Shown here: piece by piece, positions 14,804 through 53,833 of the stretch | Position numbering within the stretch: position 1 is the stretch's first letter | How the letters are laid out: the number at the start of each line of letters is the position of its first letter | Assembly (NCBI GenBank): GCA_004193285.1 | Contig: SECP01000001.1 | Coordinates: forward strand, 62,001 to 126,000 | DNA length: 64,000 nucleotides | Source: Myxococcales bacterium | Lineage (GTDB): Bacteria; Myxococcota_A; Polyangia; Polyangiales; Polyangiaceae | Direction of reading: 5' to 3' | Notes under the pieces: model-generated | Database searches by the model: none | What the model was told of the DNA's origin: nothing | Seen by the model: only the letters and a program-made list of their open reading frames with translations | Made by a program: the position numbers and the translations under genes

Positions 14804-14828
14804 ACGATCGGCTAGACAGTGGACGCGC

Positions 14829-14846
14829 CGTCTCATATGTTGGACA
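14829..14846. promoter_or_regulatory. Palindromic operator (site D) CGTCTCATATGTTGGACA
   Basis: 5+8+5 variant 20 nt upstream of the TauD-like start. Confidence 0.65.
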
Positions 14847-14866
14847 GCACAACAAGGGAGACGACG

Positions 14867-15799
14867 ATGAGTGACTCGATTGAGATCGTGCCCGTGGCGG
14901 GCCGTATCGGAGCGGAAATCCGCGGCGTTCGCCTGTCCGCTGACCTCGGAACTGGCGTGCGCAGCCAGATTCGCGAGGCCTGGTTGAAGTACAAGGTGCT
15001 GTTCTTCCGCAACCAGCAGCACCTAGACGAGGCTCAGCAAGAGTCGCTCACCACGCTCTTCGGCGCTCCGCCGGTTGGGCACCCCACCGTACCCTCCATC
15101 CACGGCACCAACTACATCACGGAGCTGGACTCGCGTCACGGCGGCCGGGCCAACTCCTGGCACACGGACGTCACGTTCGTAGACGCCTACCCCCGAGCTT
15201 CCATCTTGCGTGCGCTCGTCGTGCCGACCGCGGGGGGAGACACGGTGTGGGCGAACACGGTGGCTGCGTACCAAGAGCTGGCGCCGGAGCTGCGCGAGCT
15301 CGCGGACAAGCTGTGGGCGCTTCACACGAACGAGTACGACTACCAGGCTCGTCGTACGAAGGCTACCGCGGAAGACCTCAAGTACTACGAGGAAGTGTTC
15401 ACTTCCACCGTGTACGAGACCGAGCACCCCGTCGTGCGAGTTCACCCGGAAACGGGCGAGCGGTCGCTCCTCCTCGGCCACTTCGTGAAGAAGCTCATCG
15501 GCCTGTCCTCGCACGACTCGCAGCACTTGTTCGGGGTCTTCCAGGAGCACATCACGCGCCTCGAAAACACCGTTCGCTGGCGCTGGGCGGTGGGAGACGT
15601 GGCGGTCTGGGACAACCGCGCTACCCAGCACTACGCGATCAACGACTACGGGGACCAGCACCGTCTGGTGCGCCGCGTAACCGTGGACGGGGACGTGCCG
15701 GTCGGCGTGGACGGCCGCCGCAGCGTGACACGCAAGCGCACTCCCAAGCAGCGCCTTGAGCGCGTCGCGGCTCGCCCTGAGGTCGTCGCCGCCGAGTAA
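14867..15799 (+). CDS. TauD/AtsK-like 2-oxoglutarate/Fe(II)-dependent sulfonate or sulfate-ester dioxygenase
   Basis: NSWHTDVTF HxD motif, distal RATQHYAINDYG; only 1 Met and no Cys. Confidence 0.9.
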   Translation: MSDSIEIVPVAGRIGAEIRGVRLSADLGTGVRSQIREAWLKYKVLFFRNQQHLDEAQQESLTTLFGAPPVGHPTVPSIHGTNYITELDSRHGGRANSWHTDVTFVDAYPRASILRALVVPTAGGDTVWANTVAAYQELAPELRELADKLWALHTNEYDYQARRTKATAEDLKYYEEVFTSTVYETEHPVVRVHPETGERSLLLGHFVKKLIGLSSHDSQHLFGVFQEHITRLENTVRWRWAVGDVAVWDNRATQHYAINDYGDQHRLVRRVTVDGDVPVGVDGRRSVTRKRTPKQRLERVAARPEVVAAE

Positions 15800-25402: not shown

Positions 25403-26719
25403 TCAGAAGAAGCGGTTTGCGGGGCGCGGTAGCCCCAGGTTCTCGCGCAGGGTCGCGCCCTCGTAATCAGCTCGGAAGATTCCACGACGCTGCAGCTCCG
25501 GAATCACTTGGTCGACGAAGTCGTCCAAGCCCGCGGGCAGGAACGGAAACATCACGTTGAAGCCGTCACTGCCGCGTTCGACCAGCCAGCGCTCCATCTC
25601 GTCGGCGATGGTGCGCGCCGTTCCGACGAAGGACAAACCCGCGAAGCCGCCGAGCCGCTGGGCCAGCTGCCTCACGTTCAAGCTCTCACGGGCCGCGAGC
25701 GCAACGACGCGCTGCTGACCGCTCTGGCTCGCGTTCGTCAGCGGGAGCTCCGGGAGTGGTCCGTCCGGATCGAGCTTGGAGACGTCGTGACCGAGCGCCA
25801 CCGAAAGGGAGGCGATCGCGCTTTCGTAGTGCACGAGGCTGTCAAGCTGAGCGCGCTTTTCCCGAGCTTCGTCCACGCTGCGGCCCACGACCACGAAGGC
25901 GCCGGGGAGGATTTTCAAATGCTCCGGATCTCGGCCCAGCTTCGCCATACGGCCTTTGACGTCCGCATAGAACTTTTGGCCGTCCACGAGCGTGGACTGC
26001 GCTCCGAAGACGACCTCGGCCGTCTCGGCCGCGAGCTGCCTTCCGGCTTCGGACGCTCCCGCCTGCACGATGACCGGGTACCCCTGCACGGGCCGCGCAA
26101 TGTTGAGAGGCCCGCGCACTTTGAGGTACTTGCCGTGGTGCTCCAAGACGTGGAGCCGCGCCGGGTCGAAGTAGATGCCGCCCTCCACGTCACGCACGAA
26201 GGCGTCGTCGGCAAAGCTGTCCCACAGGCCCGTGACCACGTCGTAGAACTCGCGGGCGCGCGCGTAGCGCTCGTCGTGGTCCATGTGCTCTTCTCGACCA
26301 AAATTCAGCGCGGCGGTCGGGTTGGAAGTCGTGACGATGTTCCAACCGGCTCGTCCCCCACTCAGGTGATCGAGGGACGCGAAGCGCCGGGCGACGTGAA
26401 AAGGCTCGTCGAAGGTGGTCGACGCCGTCGCCACGAGGCCGATACGCTCGGTCGCGCCGGCGAGCGCGGCGAGCAAGGTGAACGGCTCGAAGGACGTGAC
26501 GGTGTGGCTGCGCTTGAGCGCCTCCAGCGGCATGTTCAGCACCGCGAGGTGGTCCGCCATGAAGAACGCGTCGAATTTGCCGCGCTCCAGTGTGCGCGCG
26601 AACCGGCGAAGGTGCGAAAAGTTGAAGTTGGCGTCTGGGAACGCGCCGGGGTAGCGCCAGGCTCCGGTGTGGATGCTGGCCGGGCGCATGAAGGCGCCAA
26701 GCTTCAACTTTCGGCTCAT
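25403..26719 (-). CDS. NtaA/SnaA/DszA-family FMNH2-dependent monooxygenase
   Basis: MSRKLKLGAFMRPASIHTGAWRYPGAFPDANFNFSH; HLSGGRAGWNIVTTSNP. Confidence 0.92.
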   Translation of the reverse strand: MSRKLKLGAFMRPASIHTGAWRYPGAFPDANFNFSHLRRFARTLERGKFDAFFMADHLAVLNMPLEALKRSHTVTSFEPFTLLAALAGATERIGLVATASTTFDEPFHVARRFASLDHLSGGRAGWNIVTTSNPTAALNFGREEHMDHDERYARAREFYDVVTGLWDSFADDAFVRDVEGGIYFDPARLHVLEHHGKYLKVRGPLNIARPVQGYPVIVQAGASEAGRQLAAETAEVVFGAQSTLVDGQKFYADVKGRMAKLGRDPEHLKILPGAFVVVGRSVDEAREKRAQLDSLVHYESAIASLSVALGHDVSKLDPDGPLPELPLTNASQSGQQRVVALAARESLNVRQLAQRLGGFAGLSFVGTARTIADEMERWLVERGSDGFNVMFPFLPAGLDDFVDQVIPELQRRGIFRADYEGATLRENLGLPRPANRFF

Positions 26720-29110: not shown

Positions 29111-29128
29111 TGTCTCGTAAAGAGGACA
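29111..29128. promoter_or_regulatory. Palindromic operator (site G) TGTCTCGTAAAGAGGACA
   Basis: 5+8+5 box 32 nt upstream of the minus-strand amidohydrolase operon. Confidence 0.8.
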
Positions 29129-29265: not shown

Positions 29266-30618
29266 ATGTCCAAGAAACGAGAGCTCAAGCTCGGCGCGTT
29301 CATTCCTGCCGCCGGTCACCACGTCGCCGCCTGGCGCCACCCTCTCGCCCAAGCGGATGCGGGCGTGAACATCAAGCACTACATCCGGCTCGCGCAAACC
29401 GCGGAGAAGGCCAAGCTGGACGCGATCTTCTTGGCCGACGGCCTCGCCGCGAACTTCTTCTCTGGCGCGGAGGGCAAGACGGCGTACGGCGGCACCTTCG
29501 AGCCGGTGACCCTGTTTTCGGCGCTGGCGGCCGTGACGGAGCGTATCGGCTTCATCGCTACCGCTTCGACCACGTACGAGGACCCGTTCTTGCTCGCGCG
29601 CAAGTTCGCCTCGCTCGATCACATCAGCGGCGGCCGCGCGGCGTGGAATATCGTGACCACGGGCAGCCCGCACGCGGCCGGTAACTTCGGCTACGAGGCG
29701 CACCCGGATCATGCCCTGCGCTACGAGCGCGCCAACGAGTTTTATGACGTCGTCACCGGGCTTTGGGATTCGTGGGAGGACGACGCCTTCCAGCGCGACA
29801 AGGCCAGCGGTTTCTTCTACGACCCCGCAAAATCACACCGGCTCGACTTCAACGGCAAGCACCTCAAAGTGCGCGGGCCGCTCAACGTGCCGCGGCCCCC
29901 GCAGGGGTATCCGGTCATCGTTCAAGCGGGCTCTTCCGAGGCGGGGAAGGAGTTCGCGGGCCGAACGGCGGAGGTCATCTTCACCGCGCAGCAGACGCTC
30001 GCGGACGCGCAGGCCTTCTACCGGGACGTGAAGGGGAGGCTCGCCAAGTACGGTCGCCGTCCCGAGCAGCTCAAGATCATGCCCGGCATCTTCCCCGTGC
30101 TCGGAAAAACCGAGAGTGAGGCCAAGGCCAAGTACCAGGAGCTCCAGGACCTCATTCTTCCGGAGGTCGGGCTGGGACTCCTCGGCGGCTTGGCGGGCGA
30201 CTTCGATCTCTCCAAGTACCCGGTGGACGGTCCGCTCCCGCCGCTACCGGAGACGAACAACCAAAAGAGCCGCCAGGCCCTGATGTACGACATCGCGACG
30301 AAGAAGAACTTCACGATCCGGGACCTCTACCTGTGGGTGGCCGGCGCGCGCGGTCACTGGACGCTGGTAGGCACCGCCAGCCAGATCGCAGACGAGCTGC
30401 AGAGCTGGTTCGAAAACGACGCCGCGGACGGCTTCAACCTCATGCCGCCGGTGTTGCCGACGGGGCTCGATGACATCGCTTCCGAGCTGGTGCCGGAGCT
30501 GCGCCGCCGGGGCTTGTTCCGCACCGAGTACAGCGGAACCACCTTGCGCGACCACCTCGGGCTGGAGCGTCCACAGAACCGCTTCACGGAGGAATCCCGA
30601 GCCGTCAGCGCGGAGTAA
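29266..30618 (+). CDS. NtaA/SnaA/DszA-family FMNH2-dependent monooxygenase
   Basis: MSKKRELKLGAFIPAAGHHVAAWRHPLAQADAG; HISGGRAAWNIVTTGSP. Confidence 0.92.
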   Translation: MSKKRELKLGAFIPAAGHHVAAWRHPLAQADAGVNIKHYIRLAQTAEKAKLDAIFLADGLAANFFSGAEGKTAYGGTFEPVTLFSALAAVTERIGFIATASTTYEDPFLLARKFASLDHISGGRAAWNIVTTGSPHAAGNFGYEAHPDHALRYERANEFYDVVTGLWDSWEDDAFQRDKASGFFYDPAKSHRLDFNGKHLKVRGPLNVPRPPQGYPVIVQAGSSEAGKEFAGRTAEVIFTAQQTLADAQAFYRDVKGRLAKYGRRPEQLKIMPGIFPVLGKTESEAKAKYQELQDLILPEVGLGLLGGLAGDFDLSKYPVDGPLPPLPETNNQKSRQALMYDIATKKNFTIRDLYLWVAGARGHWTLVGTASQIADELQSWFENDAADGFNLMPPVLPTGLDDIASELVPELRRRGLFRTEYSGTTLRDHLGLERPQNRFTEESRAVSAE

Positions 30619-31593: not shown

Positions 31594-33369
31594 TCAGATC
31601 GTCACGCGGCTTCCGTCGAAGCGACTGAAGCTGAAGCCGGCAAAAGACTCCTTGAAGGTCTCCCTTTCGTCGCGCAGGAGCGCGATCGCCACCTCTTCCG
31701 CTTGGGGGAGCGACGCCGCGGCGTCCGAGCGCCAGTGAATGCCAGCCCAGTTCCGGCCCTGCCCCAGATTGGTGGCGAGCTTATTCAGCTCACCGCCGAC
31801 CGTGAGCGGCGGCCCCACGTAGGGGATGAGGCGCGACGGGTCCGAGGGATCCGGCTGCACCGGGTCGGGGATGACGAAGTCCTCGTCGAAGAAGGCCTTC
31901 AAGATCGTGGCGTTCACCGCACCGATGGATGACGCCCCGCCGGGGTAAGAGCCGTGATTCGGTGCCCCCTCCGGGTAGGCGCTGGTCAGGAAATAGCTGC
32001 CGTTTTTCTCGAACGAGCGCGCGACTGCCTCGGCGGTGAGAATGTCCTCGTGGAGCGGGTAGTCCACGTCGTTTGCCAAGAAGTGATGCACGAGGCCACC
32101 GAACGCCTCCGGACGGATGGTGCGGTGCACGAACCACTTCTGCCAATAATTGGCGCGAATCTCGCGAGACGAGGACAGCGGCAGGAAGCCTTGGATGTAG
32201 CCCAGGCCAAACGTGCCGTTGCCGCTGGCCTGCTTGGTGAGGCGGAGGTACGGGTTGTTAGGATGCAGCGGCGCACCGAAGCCTCCGGCGGCGCGCGCGG
32301 TGCCGAGCAGCTGCGCCGCGCCCCAGAATGCCGGTGCGCCGCCGTGCGCATACTCGGCCAGATCGCGTCCGGTGGAAAGGAAGCGTCGGACGGAAGAGAA
32401 GGCGATCGTGCGGGTCGCCGCTTTGCCGTCTTGGTTTGCGAGCCACTCGGCTTGCGTTCCCAGGAAGTCGTTGGCCGAGCCTTGATTCGGGACGCGGAGC
32501 TGGCCGGGAATGCTTTGCACCGCGTAAGGAATGTCGCGCAAGATGAACTGCGAGACGTACGGGCCGACGGCCACGCCCGGCGGAACGACGCTGATCGCGC
32601 GGCGCCAGTGCCGATCCCTCGGATCGCGGTAGCGCGCCGTGCCGCGGAACAGCAGCTCCGGGGTGACGACGCCGCTCGAGTCGCGTGGACCCGTGTAGCC
32701 GCTGAGGCCGCTGAGCTCCGCCGCAGCGGCAAGGATCAGCTCGTTGCTGGTGGCGTTGTTGTACTCCCAGAACGGCACGTCGCGAAGCAGTGACTGCCAA
32801 TAGGCCTCGACGGCCTCCGCCGCACGCTCTGCGCTCGCCAACGTGGGCGCAGGCGGGACGGAGTGCTGAGGCGTCGCCAGTCCGGTCGTATTCACCGCCA
32901 GCGTACCGAGCGGCTGCACCAACTTACGGGTGCCGCCGAGGGTGACACGTTCGAAGTCCTCTTCACGCTGCGAGTCCAGCGCGCGGGTCAGGGTGGCCCA
33001 GGCGGCGAGATCGACCTCGCCACGCTCGTTGTGCGGCAAGCCCCGGGTGTCCGTGCCGATCTTGCTGGGGTAGAGCGCCTCGTCGCCGTTGTTGAGGTGG
33101 GGGGGAATACCGACCGCGTAGTCTTGGTACGCGCGCTCCACGCGCAGTTGCAAGTTGTCCCGAAGCAGCTCGCGGTCGTTGCGGTCCTGCCTGCTCTCGT
33201 CACGCCAAGGCGCGGCTTGCGCGTCGCTCGCCCCGAGCCCCACCGCGGTCGCGGCGGCCCCCGAAGCCGCCAGCTTGGAAGCGACACCTAGAAACGCGCG
33301 CCGATCTACGGCCTTGGCGCTCACGGGCGCAACCGACGGCGCCGAAGCCTCTCGTTCTTTTGACGTCAT
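31594..33369 (-). CDS. Tat-exported vanadium-dependent haloperoxidase-like (PAP2-related) protein
   Basis: Tat motif DRRAFLG; NYWQKWFVHRTIRP, SYPGGASSIGA and GRNWAGIHWRSDA correspond to the VHPO vanadate-site motifs (PSGH motif degenerate). Confidence 0.75.
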   Translation of the reverse strand: MTSKEREASAPSVAPVSAKAVDRRAFLGVASKLAASGAAATAVGLGASDAQAAPWRDESRQDRNDRELLRDNLQLRVERAYQDYAVGIPPHLNNGDEALYPSKIGTDTRGLPHNERGEVDLAAWATLTRALDSQREEDFERVTLGGTRKLVQPLGTLAVNTTGLATPQHSVPPAPTLASAERAAEAVEAYWQSLLRDVPFWEYNNATSNELILAAAAELSGLSGYTGPRDSSGVVTPELLFRGTARYRDPRDRHWRRAISVVPPGVAVGPYVSQFILRDIPYAVQSIPGQLRVPNQGSANDFLGTQAEWLANQDGKAATRTIAFSSVRRFLSTGRDLAEYAHGGAPAFWGAAQLLGTARAAGGFGAPLHPNNPYLRLTKQASGNGTFGLGYIQGFLPLSSSREIRANYWQKWFVHRTIRPEAFGGLVHHFLANDVDYPLHEDILTAEAVARSFEKNGSYFLTSAYPEGAPNHGSYPGGASSIGAVNATILKAFFDEDFVIPDPVQPDPSDPSRLIPYVGPPLTVGGELNKLATNLGQGRNWAGIHWRSDAAASLPQAEEVAIALLRDERETFKESFAGFSFSRFDGSRVTI

Positions 33370-33468
33370 GCTGTTCTCCATTCGCAAACGAGGGAGCCGA
33401 CCCGCCCGCGACGCGGGGCGTGATCGGCTCGCAACAGCGCTCGCGGCAGAGAACGTGAGGCATGCCGC

Positions 33469-33486
33469 TGTCTATAATACAAGACA
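33469..33486. promoter_or_regulatory. Palindromic operator (site I) TGTCTATAATACAAGACA
   Basis: Perfect arms (CTGTCT...AGACAG, 6 bp) upstream of the haloperoxidase-like gene. Confidence 0.88.
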
Positions 33487-33504: not shown

Positions 33505-34521
33505 TTAACTCCAACGGGCGTTCGGGCCAAACGCAGCGTCGTAGAAGGAGACCGTGTGACTACCTGGGGGGCTGATGGAGTCGATGCGCTTCAGCTCTGC
33601 CTCGGTGAAGGTGACGTTCAGGGCGAGCAGGTTGTCCTCCAGCTGCTCGAGCGTGCGTGGCCCGATGATGGGACTCGTGATGCCAGGCTGACGAACCGTC
33701 CAAGCCAGGGCGAGCTGACTTAGCGGGACGTTCTTCTCCTTCGCGACTCCATCGAGCGCCTCCACCGCGTCGAAGGCCCGCGGGTTGTCGAGTAAGGAGG
33801 CCGCGCGGATGTGCGTGCGATCCGAGAAACGCCCCTCGGGCTGCTGCCCCTGACGCCGATACTTTCCCGACAAGAATCCACCTGCGAGCGGGCTCCAGGG
33901 AATGAGACCCAGACCGTAGGTCGTGGCGGCGGGTATGAGCTCGCGCTCGATGCGGCGGTCCAGTAAGTTGTAAGGGGGTTGCTCGGTAACGAAGCGATTC
34001 AGGCCCAGTTCCTTGGACGCCCACAGCGACTCGACCACTTGCCATGCCGCGTACGTGCTGGACCCGATGTAGCGCACTTTCCCCGAGCGCACCAAGTCGT
34101 CCAATGCGCGCAAGGTCTCGTCGATGGCGGTTCCCGGATCCGGGCGGTGGATTTGATAAAGGTCGATGTAGTCCGTCTTCAAACGACGCAGAGAAGCTTC
34201 GGCTTGCTCGATGATCTGACGGCGGCTGTTGCCCGCTTGGTTGGGATCCAAGCCGTCGTCCGGGTGCATGTTGCCGTGCACCTTGGTTGCGAGCACGACA
34301 TGGTGACGATGCCCGTTGCGACGGAGGGCGTCCCCGACGACTTCTTCGCTACGGCCGAGGCTGTACACGTTGGCGGTGTCGATGAAGTTGATGCCTGCCT
34401 CGATTGCGCGATCGATGATGCGCTGCGACTCTTCCGGGCCCGCGCGCCCGCCGAACATCATGGCCCCCAGGGTGAGCGGGCTGACGCGAATTCCGGTGCG
34501 ACCGAGGAGACGGTGGATCAT
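33505..34521 (-). CDS. Aldo/keto reductase
   Basis: MIHRLLGRTGIRVSPLTLGAMMFGG; DYIDLYQIHRPD. Confidence 0.95.
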   Translation of the reverse strand: MIHRLLGRTGIRVSPLTLGAMMFGGRAGPEESQRIIDRAIEAGINFIDTANVYSLGRSEEVVGDALRRNGHRHHVVLATKVHGNMHPDDGLDPNQAGNSRRQIIEQAEASLRRLKTDYIDLYQIHRPDPGTAIDETLRALDDLVRSGKVRYIGSSTYAAWQVVESLWASKELGLNRFVTEQPPYNLLDRRIERELIPAATTYGLGLIPWSPLAGGFLSGKYRRQGQQPEGRFSDRTHIRAASLLDNPRAFDAVEALDGVAKEKNVPLSQLALAWTVRQPGITSPIIGPRTLEQLEDNLLALNVTFTEAELKRIDSISPPGSHTVSFYDAAFGPNARWS

Positions 34522-34527
34522 GCTCCG

Positions 34528-34545
34528 AGTCTATTATAAAAGACT
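34528..34545. promoter_or_regulatory. Palindromic operator (site J) AGTCTATTATAAAAGACT
   Basis: Perfect arms, TATTATAA centre, between divergent AKR and molybdoenzyme genes. Confidence 0.87.
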
Positions 34546-34586: not shown

Positions 34587-36641
34587 GTGCCGTTGCGTCC
34601 CCCGCAGCAATCTGTCTTGCGAACCGTCCGCACGATGTGCCCGATGAACTGTCATCCCACCCACTGCGGCCTCGAGCTCGACCTGATGAGCGATCGAGTG
34701 GTCGCCGTGCGGGGAGATCGGGCTCATCCGGAGAGTCAAGGCTTCACCTGCGTCCGAGGGCAGGCCGCACCCGGAGTCGTGGACAACCCGGCGCGGGTCC
34801 TAGAGCCGCGCGCACGAGCGGCCGACGGTTCCTGGCAGCGAACGTCGTGGGACGCAGCGTTGGACCGCATCGCGAGCGCCATCCGGGACGCGAGCCCGGC
34901 GAAGACGGCCGTGTACACGGGCCACGGCGTGCGTAATCAGCTTTCGGCGCGCTTTGCCCGCATGCTCGGCACCCAATGGTGGGATCCGAGCATCGTGTGT
35001 TGGGGCTTGGGCGGCTTCGGATTTCACCTGACGGGCGTGACCGAGGTCAACACCGCCGAGGACATGGCTGCGCACGCCGAGCTCATCGTGCTGTGGGGCT
35101 CGAATTTGATCAGTCAGCCCACCACGTTCGCCAAGCTGGTTGCGGCCAAGAAGCGCGGCGCTCGCGTCATCGCCATCGATGTGCGCGAGACAGAGACCTT
35201 CGGTCATGCCGATGCAACGTACCTGGTGCGGCCTGGCTCGGACACGGCGCTGGCGCTGGCCCTGCTGCACGTCATCATCGCGGAGGGGCTCTTCGACGAC
35301 GCCTTCGTGCAAGCGCACTGCGTCGGGTTCGAAGAGCTGCGGGAGCACGTTGCTTGCTACCACCCGGCCTGGGCGGCCGCCGAGACCGGGCTCGCGCCGA
35401 CCGCGATCTTGGAGCTTGCGCGGAGTTATGCGGGCATGAAGCGCTCGATGATCCTGGCCGGCGCCTCCTCGATGCACAAGACAGGCAACGGTTACCACGC
35501 CGCGCGCGCCATCTCCTGCCTCCCGGCGCTGACGGGGAGCCTGGGGCACGCGGGCGCCGGCATGGGACCACGTCACGCGGGGAAGAGCCACGGCTTCGGC
35601 GTCGGGAGCATCTTGCCCCCCGACACCAAAGCGCCGGAGGACGTCGTGCCCGCGGAGATGAGCCGGATTTTGGAGGCTCTCGAGACCGGGAAGGTCGAAG
35701 TGCTGCTGCTGCTCGGCACGAACTTTCTGTCGTCCTTCGCGGATGGAGGAAGAGTCTCACGCGCGCTATCGCGCTCGCGTCTGGTGGTGTGTTTCGACCT
35801 ATTCGAGAGTGATACCAGCCGAGAGCTCGCTCACCTCCTGTTGCCCGGCACCTCGTGGTTGGAAGAGGTGGGCGTGAAGCTCACGAACAGCCACGTGTAT
35901 TTGACGGACGCGCTGCTTTCCCCACGAGGTGAGTCGCAGTCGTCGGGGTGGGTGTTGCAGCAGCTCGCGTTGCGACTCGGTAGGCCGGACTTCTTTCCGT
36001 GGGGATCGTTCGAGGAGGTGCTGGACCAAACCTTCGATCATCCGGCGATGGGCCGCGGTAGCGTCGCACAGCTGCGCGCGGCCGGCGGTGTTCGTAAGCT
36101 CGACGTGGGAAGCGTAGGTCACGCCAACCTTCGCTTTGCCACACCTTCCGGCAAGGTCGAGCTGCGGTCCGCGCGTGCCGCCGAGCTGGGCCTGTCGCCA
36201 CTGCCGGAGCCGCCCCCGCGCGGCGAGACCGCCATCGACTCGGACCTCTCGCGGCGCTTCCCGTTGGTGTTCGTTCAGGGCCGCAGCTTGACGCACTTTC
36301 ATAGCTTCTACGATCACGGTCGGGTGTTAGCGCAGCTGCACCGCGCGGATCCCGAGCCCACGCTCTGGCTCAACGTCGCCGACGCGTCGGCCCGCGGGCT
36401 CGCCGAAAGGGACTCGATTCGGATTTGGAACGATCGCGGCGAGATGCAGGCGCGCGCTCACGTCACCACGCGCATCCCGAGCGGCGTCGTATGGATGCAC
36501 GACGGGTGGCGGGGCATCAACCAGCTCACGAGCAGCGCACGACAGGTTTCGGACGCGGTCGCGCGCTCGTTCCCGGCTGGCTCGGCCGCGTACGAGGCGA
36601 GGGTCGAGGTGCAGCGGGACGCGACGCGAGCGGCTCAGTAG
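34587..36641 (+). CDS. Molybdopterin oxidoreductase (MopB/DMSO-reductase superfamily) with N-terminal Fe-S motif
   Basis: CPMNCHPTHCGLELDLMSDRVVAVRGDRAHPESQGFTCVRGQAAP; C-terminal molydopterin-dinucleotide-binding-like region. Confidence 0.9.
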   Translation: MPLRPPQQSVLRTVRTMCPMNCHPTHCGLELDLMSDRVVAVRGDRAHPESQGFTCVRGQAAPGVVDNPARVLEPRARAADGSWQRTSWDAALDRIASAIRDASPAKTAVYTGHGVRNQLSARFARMLGTQWWDPSIVCWGLGGFGFHLTGVTEVNTAEDMAAHAELIVLWGSNLISQPTTFAKLVAAKKRGARVIAIDVRETETFGHADATYLVRPGSDTALALALLHVIIAEGLFDDAFVQAHCVGFEELREHVACYHPAWAAAETGLAPTAILELARSYAGMKRSMILAGASSMHKTGNGYHAARAISCLPALTGSLGHAGAGMGPRHAGKSHGFGVGSILPPDTKAPEDVVPAEMSRILEALETGKVEVLLLLGTNFLSSFADGGRVSRALSRSRLVVCFDLFESDTSRELAHLLLPGTSWLEEVGVKLTNSHVYLTDALLSPRGESQSSGWVLQQLALRLGRPDFFPWGSFEEVLDQTFDHPAMGRGSVAQLRAAGGVRKLDVGSVGHANLRFATPSGKVELRSARAAELGLSPLPEPPPRGETAIDSDLSRRFPLVFVQGRSLTHFHSFYDHGRVLAQLHRADPEPTLWLNVADASARGLAERDSIRIWNDRGEMQARAHVTTRIPSGVVWMHDGWRGINQLTSSARQVSDAVARSFPAGSAAYEARVEVQRDATRAAQ

Positions 36642-36693: not shown

Positions 36694-38295
36694 GTGACCC
36701 TCGAAGCTCCGGAGCAGCGACTCCAGGCCGATGTGCTCGTGATTGGCGGGGGACCGGCCGGCACGTGGGCTGCAGTCACCGCCGCCCGTGAGGGCGCCCG
36801 CGTCGTGCTCGTCGACAAGGGCTACTGTGGAGCGAGCGGAGTCGCGGCAACCGCGGGGGTGGGGCACTGGCTCGTGCCGCCGGACGGCGCGCTGCGCGAG
36901 GAGGCCATGCGCCAGCGAGCGCGAAGCGGCGGCGGGCTCACCGATCGGGATTGGCAAGCGCGCGTCCTGCACGAGACCTGGGAGCGCCTCGGCGAGCTCG
37001 CCTCGCTCGGCTACCCTCAGTCGCAGGATGGGCAAGGGCGGCCGGTGCTGCGGATCGGGCAGGCGCCGCAGTACCTGAAGTTCATGCGCGACTACGCCCG
37101 GCGTCAAGGCGTGCGCATCTTGGATCACGCTCCGGCGCTGGAGCTGTTGACGGGCGGCGCGGAGGTGCGTGGCGCGCGCGGCTACCGCCTTCAGAGCGGG
37201 GATTTCTACGAGGTGCGGTCCGGCGCCGTCGTGCTCGCTTCGGGAGGTTGCACGTGGAAGAGCAAGTCGCTCGGCGGCGACGTGAACACGGGGGACGGCC
37301 ACCTGATGGCAGCCGAGCTAGGCGCGGAGCTGTCCGGGATGGAGTTTTCGTCGTTCTACGGCATCGTCCCCAAGTCCACGACCATGGACAAGAACGGCTA
37401 CTACGGCTTCGCTACGTTCACTCGGGAGGACGGCTCGGTCGTGGAGGGAGCGCTGTTCAGCAGCCGCCTGCCGCTGCTGCAGGCCTCCCTGCAAGGGCCA
37501 CTCTACGCGCAGTTCGATCGCGCCCCGCGCGACAAATGGCAGACCATGCGGGCCGCCATGCCCAACTTCTTCATGGTGATGGACAAGCTGCGGTGTGACC
37601 CTTTCACCCAGCGATTCGCCATCGACTTCGTGCTCGAGGGCACCGTGCGCGGCACGGGCGGCGTGCGCTTGGTGGACGAAGCCTGCGCCACGGGCGTGCC
37701 CGGCCTTTACGCTGCCGGTGACGTGGCGAGTCGAGAAATCGTCGTCGGCGGCGCCACCGGCGCGGGCGCGCCGAACGCAGCGTGGGCGGTCGCTTCTGGC
37801 ATCTGGTCGGGGAGGGCCGCGACGCATCACGCCCGTTCCTCCAAGGGTGGCGCAGGCGCGTTGGGGCGCGGCTCGGGGCAGCTCGGACTACGGCCCTCGG
37901 GCTCGGGGAGCGAGCCGCAGGCCTGGCGCGAGCTGCTGAAGGCCGTGCAGAACGAGATCCTGCCGATCGAGAAGAACGCCCTGCGCTCGCGGCCCGGGCT
38001 CGAGCGTTCCTTGATTGCGCTGCAAACGCTGTACTTGGACGCGAGAGCTCATCTGCACGGCAGTGGCCGGGACCTCGTGCGGGCTCGAGAAACCGCGTCG
38101 ATGCTGATGATGGCGCGCTGGGCGTACGAGAGCGCGCTCGCCCGCAACGAGAGCCGCGGCATGCACGCACGCATCGATTACCCCCGAACCGACCCGCTCC
38201 AGCAACACCGCATCGTGTGCCGCGGATTGGAGCATATTCGGACCTCCGTGGACTCCGTGCGGCCTCGGCCGGCGGAAGGCTGGCTCGCGGCATGA
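36694..38295 (+). CDS. AprA/fumarate-reductase-like FAD flavoprotein
   Basis: ADVLVIGGGPAGTWAAVTAAREGARVVLVDKG; GLYAAGDVASREIVVGGATGAGAPNAAWAVASG; paralogue of 59233..60861. Confidence 0.85.
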   Translation: MTLEAPEQRLQADVLVIGGGPAGTWAAVTAAREGARVVLVDKGYCGASGVAATAGVGHWLVPPDGALREEAMRQRARSGGGLTDRDWQARVLHETWERLGELASLGYPQSQDGQGRPVLRIGQAPQYLKFMRDYARRQGVRILDHAPALELLTGGAEVRGARGYRLQSGDFYEVRSGAVVLASGGCTWKSKSLGGDVNTGDGHLMAAELGAELSGMEFSSFYGIVPKSTTMDKNGYYGFATFTREDGSVVEGALFSSRLPLLQASLQGPLYAQFDRAPRDKWQTMRAAMPNFFMVMDKLRCDPFTQRFAIDFVLEGTVRGTGGVRLVDEACATGVPGLYAAGDVASREIVVGGATGAGAPNAAWAVASGIWSGRAATHHARSSKGGAGALGRGSGQLGLRPSGSGSEPQAWRELLKAVQNEILPIEKNALRSRPGLERSLIALQTLYLDARAHLHGSGRDLVRARETASMLMMARWAYESALARNESRGMHARIDYPRTDPLQQHRIVCRGLEHIRTSVDSVRPRPAEGWLAA

Positions 38296-38657
38296 TCGAG
38301 GTCGTCAGCAAGGACCGCTGCACGGGTTGTAATCTCTGCGTGCGCGTGTGCCCCACCAACGTGTTCGAGGAGAACGAAGGGGAAGCGCCGACCATCGCGC
38401 GCCAGGAGGATTGCCAGACGTGCTTTCAATGCGAGGTCTATTGCCCGTTCGACGCGCTTTTCGTTGCGCCGCTCCGTCACCCGGCTCCCGAGGATTCGGA
38501 GTGGCGCAGCGAGCAGAAGCTGATCGAAACGGGGCAACTCGGCCTCTACCGTCGGCGCGTGGGTTGGAGCGACGAAGAGCGCCCTGCCGTGCCCAGCGAC
38601 GCGGAGTGGTCGGTGCTGCTGCGCGCGATGCAGGGCGGGCCGCCCGCCGCGCGCTGA
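38292..38657 (+). CDS. 4Fe-4S ferredoxin (AprB-like)
   Basis: CTGCNLCVRVCPTNVF and CQTCFQCEVYCP; ATGA overlap with flavoprotein. Confidence 0.9.
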   Translation: MIEVVSKDRCTGCNLCVRVCPTNVFEENEGEAPTIARQEDCQTCFQCEVYCPFDALFVAPLRHPAPEDSEWRSEQKLIETGQLGLYRRRVGWSDEERPAVPSDAEWSVLLRAMQGGPPAAR

Positions 38658-49205: not shown

Positions 49206-49223
49206 TGTCTAGTATAGGAGACT
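49206..49223. promoter_or_regulatory. Palindromic operator (site R) TGTCTAGTATAGGAGACT
   Basis: 5+8+5 box between divergent 49165 and 49260 starts. Confidence 0.83.
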
Positions 49224-49259: not shown

Positions 49260-50201
49260 GTGGCTGCCGATTCTGGCGGGAACAACTGGCAGCGTGGACG
49301 CCTAGACGAGGCCACCTTCCAGCTCCTGGCGAGGGACCTTTCGGGGCCTGAGCTTCAATCCGCGCTTCTAGGGGTGCTGCGGCAGCGCGCCGCGGACCGG
49401 GCGCCGCGCGAGGTGCTGGAGCAATTTCGCCGCGACCCATTTTCTGCGTCGGGCCTCGTTGATCAACGCACCAGCGTGGCCATCGACCACGAGCTACTGG
49501 CGGCGGCGAGCGAGTTCGAAGCTGTCGAGCTTTCACCGCTCGCTCCGCTGGGCACCACTTCCTCGGTAGCCCTCACGGATCAGAACCGCGTCGTTTCCGC
49601 GCTTCGCTCCACGGAGGTGGTGTCGGACCCTACCAATGTGCTCGCGCTGCAAAGCGCGCTGCGGTTGCGGGCAGCGCCGGGGCAAGCCGTTCACTACGCC
49701 ACGTCGCACCGGGTGGTGCGCGCGCAGCCGGTGCGGAGCTCGCCTCATCATTCGCAGCACTTTCGGCTGTTCGTCCTGACTAGCGCGGGCCGAGAGCAGA
49801 AAGATCACGGCTTCACGCTGCAGGCGCTTCGCCAGCAGGTGGGCGCCGTATTAGCGGGGCTGAACCGCCTCGAGCGCGCGGGGTACGCGTTCGGCGCGCG
49901 CCGTATCGAGGTGCTGACGACTCCCGAGCGCGCGTCCCTCGGAGATCGCCTGGCGGCTGCTTCCGGGCTGCCGTCGCGGCGCTCGCCCTTGGATCATGCG
50001 TACTACTCGGGAGGGCTACGCTACAAAATCTGGCTGACGACGGCCCAGGGTGTGGAGCTCCCCGTCGTCGATGGCGGGGCATTCGACTGGGTCGCCAAGC
50101 TCACCTCGAACCGTCGCACCGTGTTCGTCGCCACCGGACTCGGTTCGCAGCTCCTTCCGTTGCTGTTCCGCCCGACTACAGTGCCCTCAGGCGGCATCTA
50201 G
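49260..50201 (+). CDS. Conserved hypothetical protein, possible class II aminoacyl-tRNA synthetase/HisZ-like paralogue
   Basis: FEAVELSPLAPLGTTSSVALTDQNRVVSALRSTEVVSDPTNVLAL...; 1 Met and no Cys in 313 aa; fold assignment is inference. Confidence 0.45.
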   Translation: MAADSGGNNWQRGRLDEATFQLLARDLSGPELQSALLGVLRQRAADRAPREVLEQFRRDPFSASGLVDQRTSVAIDHELLAAASEFEAVELSPLAPLGTTSSVALTDQNRVVSALRSTEVVSDPTNVLALQSALRLRAAPGQAVHYATSHRVVRAQPVRSSPHHSQHFRLFVLTSAGREQKDHGFTLQALRQQVGAVLAGLNRLERAGYAFGARRIEVLTTPERASLGDRLAAASGLPSRRSPLDHAYYSGGLRYKIWLTTAQGVELPVVDGGAFDWVAKLTSNRRTVFVATGLGSQLLPLLFRPTTVPSGGI

Positions 50202-52326: not shown

Positions 52327-53814
52327 TCAGCCTCCCAAGCTGAGCGGTGTTTTTTCCGGCTCGGCAGTGACGCACAAGGCGCCGTCCGCGGGCGGCGCTT
52401 CTGTCCCTTGCACGCGCACGGACCGTTCGCGGCCGAGCGCCGCGGCGCCGGGCACGCGGAAGGTCTTCACGTCCAAGCGCTTGATCGGCTGGGTTTTCGG
52501 CCGCGTGAGCTGGGGCACCCAGTCGTAGGGCGCGCGGTACGCGCGGTAAACGAGGTTGAGGTTCAGCGGACCCTTGCGCCAGTAAGGACTGATGTACTCC
52601 CACACGATCTCGTGGGACGGAGTCACCTCGAAGATGCGTCCATCCGAGCCCTCCGTGATGAGGGTGTTGCCGTTCGGCAGGCGCTGCGCGCTGCTGATGA
52701 ATGGACTGTAGAAGCGGGCGGCGTCCAGCGGGACGACGAAGCCCGCTTCCTTCGGGGTGTATTGCCATTTGACCTCGAGCGTGATCGGATCGATCTCGAG
52801 CACGCGCGAATAGTCGCGCTGCGCCACCTTCAAGCCGGTGGGAGCGGTGGGGGTCGGCGTGCCGTAGCCGGCCCAACCGCCGTTGTCGAAGACGAGCAGG
52901 TTGCCGGCGCCGGGTAGGCCTTGCGGGATGAGGTGTGCGTGGTGCTGACCGATGATCCAGCCTAGTTTCTTTTCCGCGTCGGTTCCGTCGTAGCGCGGCC
53001 CCAACTTCCACACGATCTTGCCGCTCTTCTTGTCGACGATGGCGATGATGTTCGCCTCCCGAGCGTCCCAAATGACGTTGTCGGGGTGGAATCGTTGATC
53101 GCCGCCGTCGTAGAAGCGGTTGGGCCCCAGCGTAGAGAGCGAGTTGATGTGCAGCCAGTCCCCCACGCCTCCGCTCGAGGGACCTCCCAGCGCGCCGGCG
53201 CCGGGGGCGCGGACATTGGGGTCCAATCGTAGGGACGTCTTGGCGGCTTCGTCGAACCCGAGCTCTTCGAAGTGCTCGTGGGGATGCCAGTCCCACACGA
53301 TATTGCCCTTCCAATCCACCTCCACGATGCGGTCGTCGAGCAGCGGCTTGTCCGAGATGCGCTCGTTCCGCACGTTCTCGTGCGCCAAGATGAGCGTGCG
53401 CCCTCCGTCCACGCGCGGCGTGAGGTCCGGCGCGTAGTAGCCGACCGGGCTACCCTCGCGCTGAAAATCATGATGCTGGCGTGCGTACCAACGTGGAGCT
53501 TCGCCCGGGTCCGATAGGTGCTCGAGCCGGTCGAAGCGCCATACCACGTTGCCGTCGAAGTCCACCTGCACCAAGTCCAGCTGGTCTTGAGCGCCGTGGA
53601 CGGGCTTGCGCTCCGCGCTGCTGCCGAAGACCTGACCTCCGGGCAACAGCTTGTTGGGAAAGCCTTGCAGCCCCTCCCACAGCTGCACTTCACGCCCGTT
53701 CATGTCGATGAGCAGCGCGCCTATGCCGGGAGCTTGAAAGAGCGTAAAGCCGCTCCACGCGCGCTCCGGATCGTAGACCGTCACGCCGGTCGGATACACC
53801 GTGGGGTAACCCAT
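52327..53814 (-). CDS. Arylsulfotransferase (ASST)-like protein, no signal peptide seen
   Basis: LLPGGQVFGSS, HHDFQREGSPVGYYAP, VDWKGNIVWDWHPHEHFEELG, LGPNRFYDGGDQRFHPDNVIWDAREAN repeats typical of ASST propellers. Confidence 0.82.
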   Translation of the reverse strand: MGYPTVYPTGVTVYDPERAWSGFTLFQAPGIGALLIDMNGREVQLWEGLQGFPNKLLPGGQVFGSSAERKPVHGAQDQLDLVQVDFDGNVVWRFDRLEHLSDPGEAPRWYARQHHDFQREGSPVGYYAPDLTPRVDGGRTLILAHENVRNERISDKPLLDDRIVEVDWKGNIVWDWHPHEHFEELGFDEAAKTSLRLDPNVRAPGAGALGGPSSGGVGDWLHINSLSTLGPNRFYDGGDQRFHPDNVIWDAREANIIAIVDKKSGKIVWKLGPRYDGTDAEKKLGWIIGQHHAHLIPQGLPGAGNLLVFDNGGWAGYGTPTPTAPTGLKVAQRDYSRVLEIDPITLEVKWQYTPKEAGFVVPLDAARFYSPFISSAQRLPNGNTLITEGSDGRIFEVTPSHEIVWEYISPYWRKGPLNLNLVYRAYRAPYDWVPQLTRPKTQPIKRLDVKTFRVPGAAALGRERSVRVQGTEAPPADGALCVTAEPEKTPLSLGG

Positions 53815-53815
53815 T

Positions 53816-53833
53816 TGTCTACTTTAATGGACC
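53816..53833. promoter_or_regulatory. Palindromic operator (site T) TGTCTACTTTAATGGACC
   Basis: 5+8+5 box ending 1 nt upstream of the ASST-like ATG (minus strand). Confidence 0.75.

Follow-up and report, generated by a model that had tools for sequence, protein, structure and literature searches.

The described systems nearest to the locus reported here are the algal vanadium bromoperoxidases (VBPOs), a few bacterial proteins related to them, and a flavin-dependent pathway for the salvage of organic sulfur. To our knowledge, what bacterial VBPO-type proteins do for the cells that make them has seldom been established. The vanadium haloperoxidase (VHPO) of the cyanobacterium Acaryochloris marina (5LPC, 8Q20, and 8Q21) is a bacterial protein with the VBPO-type fold (TM about 0.7) and was deposited as a haloperoxidase; it is absent from our tree, in which the cyanobacterial relatives that retain PxGH fall outside the clade described below. 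NapH3 (8CXL) is a VHPO homolog with a non-halogenation reaction, but it acts in natural-product biosynthesis and is a poor fold match to our model (TM about 0.2). The VBPO of Ascophyllum oxidizes thioethers via direct oxygen transfer in the active site (PMC11433219). In soil bacteria, the salvage of S-alkylcysteine starts with acetylation and sulfoxidation; CmoJ then cleaves the C-S bond, and deacetylation follows (PMC10863075). Our literature search found no paper linking bacterial haloperoxidases to sulfur starvation; most of the haloperoxidase transcripts listed for Gracilaria decreased under sulfate deprivation, and one PAP2/haloperoxidase-like transcript increased (PMC5402284).

Here we describe a VHPO-like gene from a Myxococcales bacterium, located in a 64,000-nucleotide stretch of DNA that was analyzed as a whole (the window); its features are collected in Table 1. 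The product resembles the algal VBPOs of Ascophyllum (1QI9) and Corallina (1QHB, 1UP8, and 8VH0) in overall fold (TM 0.77 to 0.82, E about 1e-35), but it differs from them in lacking Cys and Met beyond the start, in carrying a Tat signal, and in its setting within a putative bacterial organosulfur regulon.

TABLE 1 Features of the VHPO-like gene, its product, and selected genes of the window
Feature	Coordinates	Strand	Basis or remark
Sulfur-free Tat-signal VBPO-fold protein, 591 aa	31594..33369	-	ORF, composition, PDB sequence match, AlphaFold/Foldseek
Tat-type signal region, DRRAFLG...AQA-A, residues 22-54	33208..33306	-	sequence; most clade members also have an RRxF-type motif
Vanadate-site segment K411...R419 (KWFVHRTIR), matching K341/R349 of 1QI9	32113..32139	-	phmmer alignment; invariant
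H472...G477-G478-A479 (HGSYPGGA)	31933..31956	-	1QI9 alignment: H411 kept, S416 to Gly, H418 to Ala
R539...H545 (RNWAGIH), matching R480 and the axial vanadate ligand H486	31735..31755	-	both invariant
Palindromic operator TGTCTATAATACAAGACA, 99 bp before ATG	33469..33486	.	exact TGTCT-N8-AGACA; genome count; weight matrix
Aldo/keto reductase, next gene upstream, same strand	33505..34521	-	own box at 34528-34545
NtaA/DmoA-family FMN monooxygenase, homolog of DszA and YtnJ	29266..30618	+	boxes at 29111 and 29218
NtaA/DmoA-family FMN monooxygenase	25403..26719	-	73% identical relative adjoins VHPO-like gene in L112 and L113
Amidase	62101..63489	+	relatives directly downstream of VHPO-like gene in L112 and L113
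TauD-family dioxygenase	14819..15799	+	sulfur-free in called form 14867-15799
SsuD-like alkanesulfonate monooxygenase	60959..62104	+	below NCBIfam equivalog cutoff

Fold and active site of the VHPO-like protein

Gene calls were made with a simple caller of our own, and start positions are approximate. The 591-aa open reading frame begins with an ATG preceded by GGAGA, and an alternative form of 597 aa begins with TTG; the interval singled out in the original prediction (31594-33486) comprises this gene together with the box in front of it. The protein contains no Cys and a single Met, which is the initiator. Its N terminus carries the twin-arginine motif DRRAFLG ahead of a hydrophobic stretch and AQA-A, the pattern of a Tat substrate, and the protein is thus predicted to be exported by Tat.

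No family was assigned to the protein in Pfam and NCBIfam searches. A phmmer search against PDB sequences matched the VBPOs of Ascophyllum (1QI9, 1.6e-54) and Corallina (1QHB, 1.6e-48), and among solved structures, the nearest relatives are without exception vanadium haloperoxidases, most of them bromoperoxidases. An AlphaFold model based on the 41-row alignment, the input having left out one row from the plasmid collection, has a mean pLDDT of 90.9. In Foldseek the model groups with VBPOs (best match 1QI9, E 1.4e-35, TM 0.77/0.81), and acid phosphatases are found among its weak matches. The sequence matches and the predicted structure together argue strongly for the algal VBPO fold.

The pocket was judged from aligned residues. 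Residues K341, R349, H411, G417, R480, and H486 of 1QI9 correspond to K411, R419, H472, G478, R539, and H545, and all six are kept, so that the Lys, the two Arg, and the axial His of VBPO-type enzymes are in place. In contrast to the algal enzymes, S416 is replaced by G477 and H418 by A479; the PSGH motif, with its catalytic Ser and His, therefore reads PGGA. The PAP2/class A acid phosphatase signature KX6RP-PSGH-SRX5HX3D is not present in the protein, PSGH being absent, and there is no Pfam PAP2 match. The motif segments read HRTIRPEAFGG, SYPGGAS, and GRNWAGIHWRSD, and K411, R419, R539, H545, and D549 are invariant in the 41-row alignment. A further position, W338 of the Ascophyllum VBPO, which we take to be a halide-pocket residue, is Y408 here. 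Vanadate is also contacted by the PSGH Ser and His, and its binding may therefore be weaker here. The original prediction, made from the window's sequence, of a sulfur-free, Tat-exported protein resembling VHPOs, in which the RP and R...H segments are kept and PSGH is altered, is in agreement with the composition, the signal region, the PDB and Foldseek matches, and the alignment with 1QI9.

Operator and gene content of the island

The box upstream of the gene is an exact copy of the palindrome TGTCT-N8-AGACA. The window contains 26 matches to this pattern at 2 or fewer mismatches (13.5 expected), and exact sites number 6 in the 8.66-Mb genome, every one of them on contig C96 and within about 91 kb; the reversed control gave 0 sites in the genome. 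A weight matrix derived from 15 window sites has the consensus TGTCTATTATAATAGACA, the center of which is TATAAT, and the box may overlap a -10 element. The site at 33469-33486 scores 25.5. Scores of at least 12 are reached by 20 sites in the window and by 11 in three flanking 20-kb stretches outside the training set, and by none in 229 kb of background. The background came from 18 contig stretches, of which one (L023) has no readable GC and is taken to consist of withheld bases. The assignment of this box to a shared operator family, as originally proposed, is supported, and the VHPO-like gene carries a copy of the operator that marks members of the putative sulfur-starvation regulon of this genome. 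We infer that sulfur shortage switches the gene on through this island operator. A search of the Rhizobacter and Moraxellaceae-MAG loci introduced below did not turn up the operator, and the box is not conserved there. Contamination of the contig is disfavored by its tetranucleotide correlation with other contigs (0.985 to 0.994).

In addition to the genes of Table 1, the island encodes several NtaA/DmoA-type or luciferase-like monooxygenases, ABC-type binding proteins and ABC parts, and a DszC/SfnB-like protein, and cysteine synthase (cysK) and serine acetyltransferase (cysE) lie within it. Among proteins with 180 aa or more, 8 of 51 in the window have neither Cys nor Met beyond the start, compared with 2 of 141 in the background (p 4.5e-4); the longer of these two has 273 aa. 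Mean Cys plus Met content is 1.3% in the window and 2.3% in the background.

Several other features were observed. Cys/Met depletion is island-wide and affects many proteins in the window, L041, L042, and L050. A 313-aa protein (49260-50201, +; box at 49206) has no Cys or Met after the start and no Pfam match. An arylsulfotransferase (ASST) family protein is encoded at 52327-53814 (-), with a box at 53816, directly at the gene start. A sigma-54 activator that ends in an NMT1/THI5-like binding domain (2808-4757, +, box at 2749-2766; L041:13584-15515), with related matches in L110 and L111, is possibly a one-protein ligand sensor. AprA/AprB-like pairs of FAD and ferredoxin proteins are encoded at 36694-38657 (+), adjoining a molybdopterin oxidoreductase (34587-36641), and at 58886-60861 (-), and their relatives recur in L003, L113, and L115. 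The cysteine synthase gene of the island, followed by that for serine acetyltransferase, is found at L042:12088-14015, about 12 kb into that stretch.

The PxGA clade and its gene neighborhoods

Relatives were sought in named genomes, in the order and phylum of the window's organism, in the order of Rhizobacter, in a cyanobacterial class, and in plasmids, which gave 49 usable full-length sequences. In 13 of them the His of PSGH has been replaced, by Ala in 12 and by Val in 1, and 12 of these 13 have also lost the Ser; all 36 PxGH relatives keep the His. For the tree, the motif columns were removed and Cys and Met masked, and a branch with SH-aLRT 100 separates the 13 His-less sequences from the rest. 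This PxGA clade spans Myxococcota (the window and two genomes of the same family), Proteobacteria (Rhizobacter, a second genome of the same order, a Moraxellaceae MAG, and a Microvirga plasmid), and Cyanobacteria. An RRxF-type motif is present near the N terminus in 11 of 13 members; RRSLLG is found in L058, and a convincing Tat motif was not found in L057.

After residue 60, 10 of the 13 clade members have no Cys or Met and the other three have 1, 5, and 7, compared with 6 to 33 (mean 13.8) in the PxGH relatives (p 1.4e-7, a guide only, as rows of one clade are non-independent and L112 and L113 are near-copies with 92% identical VHPO-like proteins, so that p-values overstate). Tyr408 is found in 13/13 clade members and in 0/36 PxGH relatives. 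The motif is indeed altered, as first described; the alteration is a trait of the whole clade, not a peculiarity of this locus, and comes with a second change in the halide pocket, W338 to Y408. Because of these two circumstances, reduced halide oxidation would be more likely than a merely altered haloperoxidase. The altered site appears to be maintained and not decaying, because dN/dS is 0.30 and 0.10 in two pairs of close relatives. A clade fragment, L087, has an in-frame stop, and a same-family genome (G164) has a short PxGA-type fragment (L016/L049), 73% identical over the last 77 residues and apparently a remnant; therefore, loss of the gene also occurs.

Sulfur markers of the window (TauD, LLM monooxygenases, AprA/AprB-like proteins, sigma-54 plus NMT1, binding proteins, and amidase) were sought in the flanks of the relatives, usually about 9 kb per side. 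At least two markers were found at 9 of 14 clade loci and at 0 of 31 PxGH loci (p 2.3e-6, likewise a guide only; L116 was placed in the clade by similarity alone, its match ending at a stop before the motif, and the count without it is 8/13). In the cyanobacterial loci L112 and L113, the VHPO-like gene stands between genes for an LLM monooxygenase, which shares 73% identity with that at 25403-26719, and an amidase, all three in the same direction, and the TauD and amidase of these loci are free of Cys and Met in the matched parts. No sulfur neighbors were found in the flanks of L057 and L084, the two full-length members with more than one Cys/Met, and no sulfur markers within about 9 kb of the sulfur-free clade loci L004, L043, and L044. 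Taken together, the association of this VHPO-like family with organosulfur use is strong, and the role in organosulfur use that had been suggested from the window is thereby supported by comparative evidence from other phyla.

Proposed role and alternative explanations

That the VHPO-like protein takes part in sulfur scavenging is, taken separately, highly probable. Its S-oxygenase chemistry, also taken separately, is plausible but falls short of even confidence. As the best explanation of the whole, we tentatively propose, at not quite an even chance, that a clade with the VBPO fold was recruited to organosulfur scavenging as a sulfur-free, Tat-exported S-oxygenase. The gene would be expressed under sulfur shortage via the palindromic operator of the island, and the mature chain, having no sulfur, would cost the cell none. 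The pocket retains the residues that bind oxyanions (Lys, two Arg, Gly, and the axial His) and has lost both features that serve halide oxidation (H418 to Ala, W338 to Tyr). After export by Tat, the protein would bind vanadate and use H2O2 for direct transfer of one oxygen to a thioether sulfur. Once imported, the sulfoxide or sulfone would be a substrate for C-S cleavage by the regulon's own DszA/CmoJ-type flavin monooxygenases, and the amidase would act on acylated substrates. Loss of the PSGH His need not abolish vanadate binding, because the H404A mutant of a fungal chloroperoxidase was crystallized with vanadate (1VNG; PMC8407142). The CmoO/CmoJ pathway follows the same logic of sulfoxidation, flavin-dependent C-S cleavage, and deacylation (PMC10863075), and YtnJ and DszA are homologs of the neighboring NtaA/DmoA monooxygenases of the island. 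CmoO, however, is a flavoenzyme, whereas here an exported VBPO-fold protein would carry out the oxidation. Sulfur control, vanadate binding, and S-oxygenation are inferred. As a counterpoint, the island already encodes a DszC/SfnB-like candidate for sulfoxidation.

The K/R/R/His pocket is related to that of PAP2 acid phosphatases. A hydrolase of sulfate (or phosphate) esters, with H545 attacking an exported ester, H472 replacing the general acid, and sulfate being released, would fit the invariance of the oxyanion-holding residues, the acid phosphatases among the weak fold matches, the arylsulfotransferase-family gene in the same regulon, and a chloroperoxidase crystal with sulfate (1VNS, listed in PMC8407142). 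We consider this unlikely, as the general-acid His is gone throughout the clade and the Ser nearly so, the recurring neighbors are C-S monooxygenases, not sulfatases, and no sulfatase with a VBPO fold is known to us. The clade-wide loss of the catalytic His despite purifying selection could also point to a protein that retained the fold without its peroxidase chemistry, either an enzyme working independently of vanadate or an oxyanion binder, for which the rearrangement catalyst NapH3 provides a precedent as a VHPO homolog with non-peroxidase chemistry (PMC8407142). Retention of the axial His, the Lys, both Arg, and the Gly is unexpected for an abandoned oxyanion site, and NapH3 is itself a weak fold match, making this reading improbable as well.

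A conventional, sulfur-poor haloperoxidase that produces hypohalous acid for defense or for extracellular breakdown of organic matter would agree with the closest solved relatives, all of which are vanadium haloperoxidases; the replacement of H418 and W338 in every full-length clade member, set against the His kept in 36/36 relatives, and the lack of a sulfur-gene neighborhood around the PxGH relatives render it very unlikely. Many proteins of the island are poor in sulfur, and the link to sulfur could be incidental, a matter of island-wide composition bias or hitchhiking; this is highly improbable, since the sulfur-free state and the sulfur neighbors recur in cyanobacteria and in Burkholderiales of different base composition, and since the VHPO-like gene has its own copy of the operator.

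Recruitment of the clade to organosulfur scavenging therefore remains our preferred reading. Its most specific form, in which members of the clade have abandoned halide oxidation and are devoted to sulfur nutrition as peroxovanadate S-oxygenases, sulfur-free and exported, that open thioethers, is possible but rather doubtful; if true, it would mean a nutritional role for a vanadium enzyme of the VBPO family. The clade represents a natural experiment in which the halide-oxidizing residues are replaced and the vanadate-site residues are fixed, and it shows clearly, and in more than one phylum, how a protein can spare sulfur in its own composition. Our results suggest a probable shift of this VHPO family away from halogen chemistry and toward sulfur scavenging, and the PxGA clade gives bacterial VBPO-type proteins a testable role, the acquisition of sulfur.
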